Positions 3,769-13,814 of a stretch of 19,994 nucleotides of DNA are shown piece after piece; within the stretch, counting starts at the first letter, position 1, and each line of letters begins with the position of its first letter. The stretch lies in contig CAMJNN010000015.1 of NCBI GenBank assembly GCA_946407325.1, positions 1 through 19,994 on the forward strand, written 5' to 3'. A model generated the notes under the pieces. That model saw only the letters and a program-made list of their open reading frames with translations. It had not been told where the DNA came from and did no database searches. The position numbers and the translations under genes were made by a program. This DNA comes from an uncultured Prevotellaceae bacterium. GTDB taxonomy: Bacteria > Bacteroidota > Bacteroidia > Bacteroidales > Bacteroidaceae.

Positions 3769-3840
3769 GGTGCCTTGGATGAGTGGTTGAGTCACTGGTC
3801 TGCAAAACCATGCACGGCGGTTCGAATCCGCCAGGCACCT
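3769..3840 (+). tRNA. tRNA-Cys (anticodon GCA)
   Basis: The full cloverleaf can be drawn. The acceptor stem GGTGCCT (3769-3775) pairs with AGGCACC (3833-3839), the discriminator base is U (3840) as expected for tRNA-Cys, and a genome-encoded CCA follows at 3841-3843. The T arm is GGCGG-TTCGAAT-CCGCC (3816-3832). The anticodon loop CT-GCA-AA (3800-3806) has GCA at 3802-3804. The top pair of the anticodon stem (C3795 with T3811, positions 27 and 43) is a mismatch; the other four pairs are canonical. Confidence 0.96.
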
Positions 3841-3844
3841 CCAA

Positions 3845-10919: not shown

Positions 10920-12308
10920 ATGAGAAAGACATTAATTGGCTTGGCTATGCTGAGCATTTCGTCCACTGCTTTTGCTGGTGGCGTACTGACCAACACAAAT
11001 CAATCGGTAGCCTTTATCAGAATGTTGACACGTGGCGCTATGATAGATTCTGATAGTCCTTATTCCAACCCTGCTGGTTTGGGCTTCCTGCAAAGAGAGG
11101 GCTTGTATATCTCGTTCAACTGGCAAAATGCTTATCAGGAACGTAATATTGACGCCACTTTCCCCTTGTTCCCCGAAGCTAACCATCACAGTTTCTATAA
11201 AGGTACCGCTTCGGCACCTGTTATCCCTTCGCTGTTTCTTACTTATCGTAAAGGCGATTGGGCCATTTCTGCCTACGGAGGCGTGATAGGTGGTGGAGGC
11301 GAGGCTTCCTATAGTACAGGTTTGCCGATGTTCGACTCGGGTGTAATGGCTAAGATAGCTGCCAATCCTACCATACAGACGGTGATGAAGGCCACTGGAG
11401 CACAAGCGGCATCAGATTTATATGACATGAACTCAGCTATGAAGGGCCATCAGTTTATTTATGCCTTTCAGGCTGGTGTGACCTATCGTGCCACCGATTG
11501 GCTGTCGATTTATGCAGGTGCCCGTATGAACTATTTCGTGGGTGGCTACAAAGGTTATGTAACGGCTACTGCCAAACCAGAACTGTTGCAAAATCCAGTT
11601 ATCCAGCAAGCTGCTGCTGCCAATCCTGCTTTAGCAGCCTTGGCTAACCAGCCGTTGGTGGACCTAAGATTGGATGTTGACCAGAAAGGATGGGGTGTAG
11701 CTCCTATCATTGGTGCCCATGTAAAGTTGAACAAATGGAACATTGGTTTGAAATATGAATTTAAGGCTAATCTCAACATTGAAAACAACACCAAGGAGAA
11801 TTCTGATCCCAATGGTGCTTTGGCTGCGTATAGAGACGGCGTGAACACACCGAGTGATGTGCCTGCTCTGTTCAGCGGTGCTGTGATGTATGAGATTTTG
11901 CCTACCTTGCGTGCCAGTGTGGAGTATCATCACTTCTTCGACAAGAACGCTGAGATGGCCAACGATAAGCAGAACGCTCTGACTCGTGGTACCAATGAAT
12001 ACTTAGTTGGCGTGGAATGGGATGCACATAAGTATGTCACCCTCAGTGCAGGTTTTCAACGTACCGACTATGGCTTGAGTGATGACTTCCAGTACGACAC
12101 CTCTTTCTACTGTGATTCTTATTCTATCGGTTTGGGTGGTGTGATTCACCTCTCAAAACGTATGAAGGTAAATATTGGCTATTTCTGGACACATTATACC
12201 GATTATACCAAGCAGAGCAGCAACTATAACAATACTACCTTGCCAGGTACGAATGTGTATAGTCGTCATAACAAGGTGTTTGGTGCAAGCATCGACTATA
12301 TCTTCTGA
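10920..12308 (+). CDS. OmpP1/FadL-family outer membrane transporter
   Basis: A 462-residue outer membrane beta-barrel with signal peptide ending in STAFA, an N-terminal hatch-like segment leading to the family signature SNPAGLGFL, alternating amphipathic strands, and a C-terminal strand ending in phenylalanine (ASIDYIF), as expected for BAM-assembled barrels. FadL/TodX relatives move hydrophobic molecules such as fatty acids across the outer membrane; the substrate here is not known. An alanine-rich extracellular loop (PVIQQAAAANPALAALANQP region, about residues 222-243) is a local peculiarity. It is single-gene in context, with its own promoter, and its transcription may be controlled by the inverted repeat upstream. 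No clear terminator is visible after it. Confidence 0.88.
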   Translation: MRKTLIGLAMLSISSTAFAGGVLTNTNQSVAFIRMLTRGAMIDSDSPYSNPAGLGFLQREGLYISFNWQNAYQERNIDATFPLFPEANHHSFYKGTASAPVIPSLFLTYRKGDWAISAYGGVIGGGGEASYSTGLPMFDSGVMAKIAANPTIQTVMKATGAQAASDLYDMNSAMKGHQFIYAFQAGVTYRATDWLSIYAGARMNYFVGGYKGYVTATAKPELLQNPVIQQAAAANPALAALANQPLVDLRLDVDQKGWGVAPIIGAHVKLNKWNIGLKYEFKANLNIENNTKENSDPNGALAAYRDGVNTPSDVPALFSGAVMYEILPTLRASVEYHHFFDKNAEMANDKQNALTRGTNEYLVGVEWDAHKYVTLSAGFQRTDYGLSDDFQYDTSFYCDSYSIGLGGVIHLSKRMKVNIGYFWTHYTDYTKQSSNYNNTTLPGTNVYSRHNKVFGASIDYIF

Positions 12309-12344
12309 AACTCTTTCTAAAACACAAACTAATACTCTTTTCGG

Positions 12345-12384
12345 TGCAAAAGTTTGCATAGTTCGCTGATTATGCCTACTTTTG
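12345..12384 (+). promoter_or_regulatory. Promoter of the queuosine operon with small palindrome
   Basis: TTTG (12353-12356), 20-base spacer, TACTTTTG (12377-12384), a full consensus match. The -33 box lies in the palindrome TGCAAA-AG-TTTGCA (12345-12358). The predicted transcript start near 12390 leaves a leader of about 65 bases. Confidence 0.7.
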
Positions 12385-12405
12385 CGCCGATTTTTATTGT
12401 ATGAT

Positions 12406-12456
12406 GCTGCGAATAGCAGTCGTGTATTCCAGAACACCACGTAAAAAACAGGAAAT
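12406..12456 (+). ncRNA. Candidate preQ1-I-like riboswitch in the leader of the queuosine operon
   Basis: A 5-bp hairpin (12406-12410 with 12416-12420) is followed directly by a possible aptamer. P1 is CGTG (12421-12424) with CACG (12438-12441). The 13-base loop ends ACAC, as in the Bacillus preQ1-I aptamer. The tail is TAAAAAAC. Pseudoknot P2 can form: G12432-C12449, an A-A mismatch, C12430-G12451, C12429-G12452, T12428-A12453, T12427-A12454. C12437 occupies the position of the ligand-pairing cytosine and A12448 that of the conserved tail adenine. P2 would sequester GGAA just before the ATG, so ligand binding should repress translation of the precursor transporter. Folding and alignment were done by eye; the two G residues usual before TTC are absent here. 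Confidence 0.55.
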
Positions 12457-13137
12457 ATGAAACAACAAGTATCAGTTACTTTCATGTTGCTCGGCATACT
12501 GTTCAATGTGTGCCTCGTAGCTTCTAATCTCTTAGGAACCAAGCTTATCAATGTTTTTGGCATCAGCGTCACTGGCGGACTGATGATCTTTCCCATATCG
12601 TATATCATCAACGACTGTGTAGCGGAAGTATGGGGATATCGAAAGGCTCGACTCCTTATCTGGAGCGGCTTTGCCAGTAATTTCTTCACCGTAGCGGTGG
12701 GCTTGATAGCCGTTGCTATTCCTGCTGCTCCTTTCTGGGAGGGGGAAGAGCATTTCAATTTTGTGTTTGGTATGGCTCCACGCATTGCCTTTGCTTCATT
12801 GATGGCTTATCTGGTGGGTTCATTCCTTAATGCCTGGGTGATGAGTAAGATGAAGATTGCCAGTAAGGGGGCTCACTTCTCTTGGCGTGCTATTTTATCA
12901 ACCGTGGTGGGAGAAACGGGTGATTCGCTGATATTCTTCCCTATTGCTTTTGGATGGTTGATTGGTTGGACAGAACTATTTACCATGATGGTTACCCAAA
13001 TTATCCTTAAGACCCTGTATGAGATTATTGTATTGCCAGTAACCATTCGGGTGGTGAAGGCCGTAAAGAAGATGGAAGACACGGATGTGTTTGATGATAA
13101 TGTGTCGTATAATGTATTGAACGTAAAAGATATCTGA
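12457..13137 (+). CDS. yhhQ: Queuosine precursor transporter, YhhQ/VUT family (COG1738)
   Basis: A 226-residue inner membrane protein with about six transmembrane helices (starting near residues 7, 37, 68, 110, 150 and 185). It carries the family hallmarks [11 protein letters not shown] near the N-terminus, [21 protein letters not shown] after helix 2, and the [14 protein letters not shown] segment in helix 5. Family members take up queuosine precursors (preQ0/preQ1). It is immediately followed, two bases after its stop, by queC, which confirms the pathway assignment. A long structured leader precedes it, probably a preQ1-sensing element. The charged C-terminal tail after [14 protein letters not shown] is cytoplasmic. 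Confidence 0.92.
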
Positions 13138-13139
13138 TT

Positions 13140-13814
13140 ATGATTGACGATAAAGTATTGGTGGTGTTCAGTGGTGGACAAGACTCAACCACTTGTCTGT
13201 TTTGGGCAAAACGTGAGTTTAAGGAAGTGTATGCTGTGAGTTATCGTTATGGCCAGAAGCATGAGATAGAGGTGGTTCTGGCTCAAAAGATTGCCGAAAA
13301 GGCTGGGGTGCCTTTTGAGGTGATGGATATCCCTCTGGTGGGACAATTGGGTCACAACTCACTGACGGATTCGTCTATGGTAATGGATCAAGAGGTGCCA
13401 GAGAAAGGCTTACCTAATACCTTCGTGCCAGGACGTAACATGTTCTTCTTGAGCATAGCAGCTGTATATGCCCGTGAGCGTGGTATCCGTCATCTGGTGA
13501 CGGGTGTTTCACAAACTGATTATAGCGGTTATCCTGATTGTCGTGACGCCTTTATTAAATCGCTGAACGTGACACTGAACTTAGCTATGGATTACCAGTT
13601 TGTGTTGCATACGCCATTGATGTGGATAGATAAGGCACAGACTTGGGAGCTGGCTGACCAACTGGGTGTGCTCGACCTTGTGCGCAACGACACGCTGACT
13701 TGTTACAACGGTATCCAAGGCGATGGGTGTGGTCATTGTCCATCGTGCAAGTTGCGTAATCAGGGTTTACAGAAATACTTGGCACAAAAAGCCGCACGTG
13801 AAAAACTTGTCTGA
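13140..13814 (+). CDS. queC: 7-cyano-7-deazaguanine synthase QueC
   Basis: QueC converts 7-carboxy-7-deazaguanine to preQ0 using ATP and ammonia, a step in queuosine biosynthesis. The 224-residue protein has the ATP-pyrophosphatase P-loop SGGQDST at 11-17, the conserved YRYGQKHE region (35-42), FVPGRN (95-100), [14 protein letters not shown] (122-135) and the zinc-binding cysteines C188, C197, C200 and C203 ([11 protein letters not shown]). Length and motifs are standard and complete. It is translationally close to the transporter gene (ATG two bases after its TGA). No queD, queE or queF is visible in the window; those steps must be encoded elsewhere or bypassed by uptake. Confidence 0.97.

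Follow-up and report, generated by a model that had tools for sequence, protein, structure and literature searches.

The yhhQ-queC locus and its leader

The window, by which we mean the whole stretch of 19,994 nucleotides analysed here (contig CAMJNN010000015.1), contains yhhQ and queC on the forward strand. The family models (PF02592 and TIGR00697 for YhhQ, PF06508 and TIGR00364 for QueC, both TIGR models above cut-off) agree with the initial annotation, which had placed genes of the preQ1-controlled pathway here. The label Prevotellaceae holds only loosely: the closest relatives with a name are genomes from the rumen, which variously carry the labels Bacteroidaceae, Bacteroidales or Prevotellaceae. 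Elsewhere in the window, positions 3769-3843 are an ordinary tRNA-Cys gene.

At 12406-12456, a hairpin and a preQ1-I-like pseudoknot that includes the translation start region had been drawn by eye. The sequence and coordinates of this fold were confirmed, as was every pair of P1 CGTG/CACG and of a five-pair P2 with one A-A mismatch (T12427-A12454, T12428-A12453, C12429-G12452, C12430-G12451 and G12432-C12449, with A12431 opposite A12450), together with the ACAC loop end (12434-12437) and the A6 tail (12443-12448). The P2 3' strand stops 2 nt short of the yhhQ ATG at 12457, placing the start region in the pseudoknot as proposed. The features are as follows.

12353..12356, + strand: TTTG, candidate -33 promoter element, 20 nt 5' of the -7 box
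12377..12384, + strand: TACTTTTG, candidate -7 box (TAnnTTTG), a box found 5' of P1 in 147/168 leaders
12406..12420, + strand: P0 hairpin GCTGC-GAATA-GCAGT, stem 12406-12410/12416-12420, 0 nt from P1
12421..12424, + strand: P1 5' strand CGTG, in which G12424 is the pocket-floor G; P1 covaries
12425..12425, + strand: U equivalent to class I U6 (role per PMC11625349)
12427..12432, + strand: P2 5' strand UUCCAG, with A12431 mismatched; P2 covaries
12437..12437, + strand: specificity cytosine, adjoining the P1 3' strand and following an A, the type II arrangement
12438..12441, + strand: P1 3' strand CACG
12442..12448, + strand: L3 UAAAAAA, positions -15 to -9 of yhhQ
12449..12454, + strand: P2 3' strand CAGGAA, ending 2 nt 5' of the start codon
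12457..13137, + strand: yhhQ, queuosine precursor transporter
13140..13814, + strand: queC, 7-cyano-7-deazaguanine synthase

Plain folding, with a program that cannot model pseudoknots, did not single out the window leader (z -0.78) and suggested a hairpin in which CGUGU pairs with the start-codon region.

The TTTG at 12353-12356 and the TAnnTTTG box at 12377-12384 form a candidate promoter of the Bacteroidetes type, the position of which makes a yhhQ leader of about 65 nt plausible. The TAnnTTTG box was found in 147/168 leaders, as compared with 241/3400 shuffles of the 170-leader set. Both candidate boxes lie within an inverted repeat, long but imperfect, TCGGTGCAAAAGTTTGCATAGT...ATTATGCCTACTTTTGCGCCGA (12341-12390), most of which is also present in close relatives from the rumen (L031-L040); the repeat is possibly an operator, or a terminator overlapping the promoter. 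Directly 5' of P0, ATGATGCCG recurs in 24 leaders. A 19-codon frame at 12401-12460 covers P0, P1 and P2 and ends in a stop codon that shares bases with the start codon of yhhQ.

Conservation of the element in yhhQ leaders

We assembled 188 leaders, defined as the regions 5' of yhhQ from 107 loci, 80 further places and the window, and scanned them with a strict descriptor comprising a 4-pair P1, a U after P1, a C before the P1 3' strand, an A-rich L3 ending in A, and P2. The descriptor passed 170/188 leaders and 9/3760 dinucleotide shuffles. Two of the passing leaders, from the distant paralogues L186 and L187, were rejected as members, being chance matches inside coding sequence, which leaves 168/188 genuine. 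Counts given below cover these 168 leaders with 174 units, the first unit of L014 being left out for its overlapping parse; with only 86 distinct cores, and many leaders near-identical within Bacteroides, the leaders are not independent. Named strains whose loci carry the element include Bacteroides xylanisolvens XB1A (L047) and Bacteroides finegoldii DSM 17565 (L042). The 20 leaders lacking a genuine strict match comprise the two chance hits and 18 misses. In eight of these misses (L141, L144, L145, L146, L148, L149, L150, L152) the motif can still be seen by eye, P1 being shifted or reduced to 3 pairs or the spacing being shorter, in four it looks degenerate by eye (L012, L030, L096, L151), and in six (L115, L157, L158, L163, L179, L185) the motif is absent by eye.

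Spacing within the element, and from it to the gene, is narrow. L3 measures 7 nt in 149/174 units, and in 152/168 leaders the first ATG follows the first base of P2 (C) at a distance of 7-9 nt. A frame starting up to 45 nt 5' of P1 and running through the element occurs in just 38/168 leaders, 63 others having only short frames and 67 no ATG in that interval. A leader peptide was thus rejected as a general explanation; in some lineages the through-running frame possibly serves coupled translation.

Covariation of P1 and P2

Whether P1 and P2 covary across related yhhQ/queC leaders was a test named in the initial annotation, and its outcome was positive. Pairing in P1 was counted on the model-fitted alignment A3 (94 distinct rows), which leans towards P1 by construction; the MAFFT alignment of the mixed set, A1, shifts the P1 5' strand by two columns in A-type rows and was therefore used for P2 only. 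P1 takes the forms CGUG/CACG, CGAG/CUCG, AGUG/CACU, AGAG/CUCU, GGGG/CCCC and others, with 99.2% of the cells paired and 52 cells showing a two-sided change. Its covariation score was 0.393, as compared with at most 0.100 for slid partners. On these three measures (paired cells, two-sided cells and score) none of 500 shuffles was as high; the remaining two of the five measures separated P1 poorly, 482/500 shuffles being as high in the number of pairs with a two-sided change and 22/500 in pair types.

P2 occurs in two forms, an A-type UUCYAG/CAGGAA that includes the A.A mismatch, and a B-type with CUUG/CAAG, CCUG/CAGG or GUUG/CAAU. In A1, the second pair from the outside is U-A in 57 rows, C-G in 17, U.G in 8 and other in 2, and the third is U-A in 61 and mismatched in 23 (A-type). 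The P2 score in A1, 0.193 against at most 0.104 for slid partners, was reached by 0/500 shuffles. Within the A-type alone, two-sided changes affect four of the five P2 pairs, each in one sequence: two of these pairs are changed in L211, one in L009 and one in L201, where a P1 pair changes likewise. This number of changed pairs was reached by 0/500 shuffles, and the other four measures for A-type P2 by 2, 19, 17 and 4 of 500. The H-type pseudoknot of P1 and P2, a feature of class I, is present, as judged by covariation in both helices.

The candidate ligand pocket

Class I aptamers bind preQ1 through a specificity C located 5' of the P1 3' strand, a U of L1, an A of L3 and a G-C floor, and type II is distinguished by having AC at that site (PMC11625349). 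The pocket-floor G-C pair was found in 94/94 distinct rows of A3 and in 35/35 sites recovered at the level of the order. The U equivalent to U6 is present in 61/61 sequences of A2, 33/33 of A5 and 35/35 order-level sites, and an A precedes P2 in all 35 of the latter. The specificity C is constant in A5, and AC occupies the site in 34/35 order-level sites found by the models, the odd one (L230) being mis-parsed. Our parsers required the specificity C, and the strict descriptor also the U and the L3 A, so the counts obtained with them are not independent evidence for these bases; the model searches behind the 35 order-level sites did not require the specificity C. Among the 174 units, the two bases before the P1 3' strand are AC in 170 and CC in 4, and those after P1 are TA in 94, TG in 72, TC in 4 and TT in 4, which is the type II pattern of AC and no UU. 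The initial annotation had noted that the usual GG before TTC is missing; this proved no obstacle, given that the type II mark, AC before the P1 3' strand, is present. Judging from these alignments, the element has retained the preQ1-contacting bases known from solved structures of class I.

Genome searches and gene linkage

Covariance models R1 (B-type) and R2 (A-type) were run over whole genomes, blind to genes. Over 151 family genomes, R1 yielded 87 matches, spread across 78 of the genomes; 84 of the matches lie no more than 97 nt 5' of yhhQ (upstream tandem units included). In genome G028, which has no yhhQ match, the R1 match precedes queC-queF-queD-queE, and in G006 one R1 match precedes queD-queE; QueE was assigned by best match in both, at a score below the NCBIfam cut-off. 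The best 20 of the 43 R2 matches were not listed by R1 and all lie 5' of yhhQ, the other 23 being R1 places. The two models together matched 98/151 family genomes; in 11/108 family genomes with a good yhhQ match, neither R1 nor R2 found a match.

Across 198 genomes of the order, R1 matched 26 and R2 18, for a total of 33, and 165 had no match to either model. Outside the genus of the window, 27 of the 36 places found in the order lie before yhhQ, 8 before queC and one (L196, E 0.007) before neither. One of the 8 genes counted as queC (L230) is only 28% identical to QueC of the window, but queD and queE follow it. Five genomes (G454, G462, G499, G515, G559) each carry two separate copies, before yhhQ and before queC, as in a regulon. 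In a sample of the phylum, searched under a strict filter that loses weak matches, R1 matched 1/247 genomes, which belongs to the genus of the window. RF00522, under the same kind of filter, was above cut-off in 1/198 Bacteroidota genomes, and this sole match (L188, family f5) adjoins yhhQ. These gene-blind searches support that the element is tied to queuosine genes.

In genome G118, which also holds L165, a copy of the yhhQ leader with its flanks lies before a lipoprotein nucleoside hydrolase gene (L191, 2440-2640) and accounts for the one remaining R1 match of the family. We considered the hydrolase as a controlled salvage gene and gave it no weight, the leader being copied and the hydrolase having its own ATG.

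The initial annotation had allowed for a diverged or lineage-specific preQ1-I-like riboswitch. This reading is supported, because covariation was positive and the element is tied genome-wide to queuosine genes, including the G028 operon with no yhhQ match.

Relation to Rfam families and known preQ1-I types

An Rfam covariance search of the window, which the initial annotation had suggested, did place an RF00522 match at 12416-12457 (E 0.93 over 4227 families), but its 15.6 bits fall below the cut-off of 39. None of 20 loci reached the 39-bit gathering score of RF00522 (Rfam 15), and a permissive scan of 20 other loci (E up to 5) matched three and left 17 unmatched. The best relative was L139, with 29.6 bits (E 0.0092 over 4227 families), followed by L137 (26.1) and L164 (20.2). 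All three have P1 GGGG/CCCC and tails close to that of the Thermoanaerobacter tengcongensis aptamer. By its score, L139 appears to be a bridge to the known preQ1-I family. The RF00522 shortfall is a detection limit and not a structural feature, and we do not file the element in RF00522.

With type II (Bacillus subtilis, T. tengcongensis; RF00522) the element shares the H-type pseudoknot, AC before the P1 3' strand, the floor G-C, the U after P1, the specificity C, an A-rich L3, an imperfect P2 and queuosine target genes; of the four P2 steps in the T. tengcongensis aptamer, only two are canonical pairs (PMC11625349). Unlike type II, the element has a 4-pair P1 abutted by P0, UA or UG following P1 in most units, a P2 of two forms (UUCYAG/CAGGAA and CUUG/CAAG), scores below the RF00522 cut-off, hosts that dispense with Shine-Dalgarno sequences and, in one genus, tandem copies. 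Type III, known from Escherichia coli yhhQ, has the target gene, the pocket bases and a P2 just 5' of the start codon in common with the element, but differs in having UU after P1, a short pyrimidine-rich loop and an AAGG Shine-Dalgarno tail, and is almost confined to Pseudomonadota (PMC11625349).

The DUF805 RNA (RF03081) gives a weak match at the same place and resembles the element in its short stem, its A-rich strand and its G-rich tail; the window scored 13.9 bits against a gathering score of 51.1, and this candidate was dropped. DUF805 RNA is multi-copy in some Bacteroidales genomes, with 17 matches in G407 and 13 in G434 (L231-L238), and may also be a small pseudoknot.

The P0 hairpin and tandem copies

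In A-type leaders, a hairpin abuts P1 with no gap in 70 of 74 distinct upstream stretches, with varying stem sequences; controls gave a mean of 18.3/74 for shuffled stretches and 26/222 for anchors slid upstream. In B-type leaders, a hairpin 0 or 1 nt from P1 was found in 40/76 stretches, as compared with 16.2 in shuffles and 40/227 for slid anchors; the 76 include three wrongly anchored rows (L186, L187 and the first unit of L014), none of them scored as a hairpin. With a hairpin in just 40/76, P0 is optional in B-type leaders, at least as judged by this scoring.

In genus g14, R1 matched 27/41 genomes at E up to 0.1. With a loose descriptor, 14 of these 27 have three units, seven have two, five have one and one has none, so that 21/27 carry two or three pseudoknots before yhhQ (L169, L170, L171, L175-L177, L239-L268). 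The next P1 mostly begins directly after P2, with no linker, the exceptions being G043, G620 and G616. All 14 triples have P1 CGAG, CGTG and CGAG, in this order, and the double of G619 has CGAG twice. A 2022 survey of tandem riboswitches puts preQ1-I among the classes not found in tandem (PMC9481103). The g14 tandems contradict this list and would permit linker-free stacked aptamers to be tested directly.

Proposed mechanism and alternative explanations

Very probably, this leader acts as a preQ1 riboswitch of class I, similar to type II, that represses translation. The comparison shows its conservation, covariation, spacing and gene linkage, from which we infer its ligand, the sign of control, the translational level and the role of P0. 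When preQ1 (or preQ0) is scarce, the pseudoknot would be open, leaving the A-rich strand (-15 to -9) and the bases down to -3 free, and yhhQ-queC would be translated. When preQ1 is plentiful, it would pair with C12437 on the G12424-C12438 floor, its minor-groove edge being read by U12425 and an L3 adenine, and P2 would lock. With the locked P2 ending 2 nt 5' of the AUG, the ribosome could not load, and precursor uptake and synthesis would fall. P0 would stack on the short P1 and stabilise it.

The mRNAs of Flavobacterium johnsoniae, which belongs to the same phylum, have no Shine-Dalgarno sequences; their initiation correlates with adenines at -3, -6, -12 and -13 and with an unstructured stretch between -20 and +20 (PMC6847099). 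Locking of the pseudoknot would bury much of the A-rich start stretch, so preQ1 would stop translation in the absence of a Shine-Dalgarno sequence. No terminator-like site was found at 12250-12480, and translational control is what we infer from this, from the fixed spacing to the AUG and, by analogy, from the initiation features of F. johnsoniae. In three queC leaders the element lies farther from the gene, at 90 nt (L205 and L200) and more than 100 nt (L221); these misfit direct blocking of the start site and may use another expression platform.

The alternative that survives best, although we think it unlikely, is that this pseudoknot is a specificity variant and recognizes, instead of preQ1, a different 7-deazaguanine (preQ0, queuine or a base related to them). 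The element would control a transporter family together with queC, whose product is preQ0; E. coli YhhQ takes up both preQ0 and preQ1, and the T. tengcongensis type II aptamer binds preQ0 with a KD of 35 nM, 17-fold more weakly than preQ1 (PMC10622847). The existence of two P2 forms would also fit such a variant, but none of the contact bases named for the preQ1 alpha site has changed.

Still less probable, in our view, is another kind of leader control (protein binding, an RNA thermometer or a leader peptide) that came to resemble preQ1-I by convergence. It would agree with the lack of an Rfam call and with the 19-codon frame of the window, which crosses the whole element and ends on the start codon of yhhQ; it is at odds with the residue-level match of the pocket, the confinement of the element to queuosine genes and the score that L139 reaches with RF00522. 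A further alternative is a common conserved start region, rich in A, in which the pairing arises by chance. Upstream stretches of this composition are usual in F. johnsoniae (PMC6847099) and the plain fold is not special, but covariation, with two-sided changes in P1 and P2, already contradicts this alternative, as does the 168/188 leaders against 9/3760 shuffles, and its probability is negligible.

Beyond the assignment to preQ1-I, we lean, by a modest margin of confidence, towards a Bacteroidales-specific subtype in which P0 would support a minimal P1, L3 would be the A-rich substitute for a Shine-Dalgarno sequence, and one genus would hold the first natural tandems, with orthogonal P1 in neighbouring units (CGAG/CGTG/CGAG) and probably steeper control.

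Significance

Bacteroidota are among the phyla in which type I of class I is found, and type II is similarly distributed (PMC11625349). A 2013 survey gives two RNA regulogs in Bacteroidaceae and describes queuosine riboswitches as mostly limited to Firmicutes, and the main text of the Rfam-based transcriptome map of Bacteroides thetaiotaomicron reports three TPP riboswitches, with preQ1 and queuosine going unmentioned. Among the openly licensed papers listed for preQ1 in Bacteroidota or Bacteroidales, no title or opening of an abstract names the element.

The element looks like a real switch common to many gut and rumen Bacteroidales and missed by Rfam 15. Bacteroidales are major bacteria of the gut and rumen. 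McCown 2014, probably one of the earlier surveys behind the known distribution of types I and II, may already list some Bacteroidota members; if it lists yhhQ/queC leaders of Bacteroidales, only P0, the mechanism without Shine-Dalgarno sequences and the tandems would remain new. A 2024 review predicts riboswitches in bacteria that lack Shine-Dalgarno sequences and names finding them as a challenge (PMC11625349). If our reading is true, the element would be a testable family of riboswitches in such bacteria.
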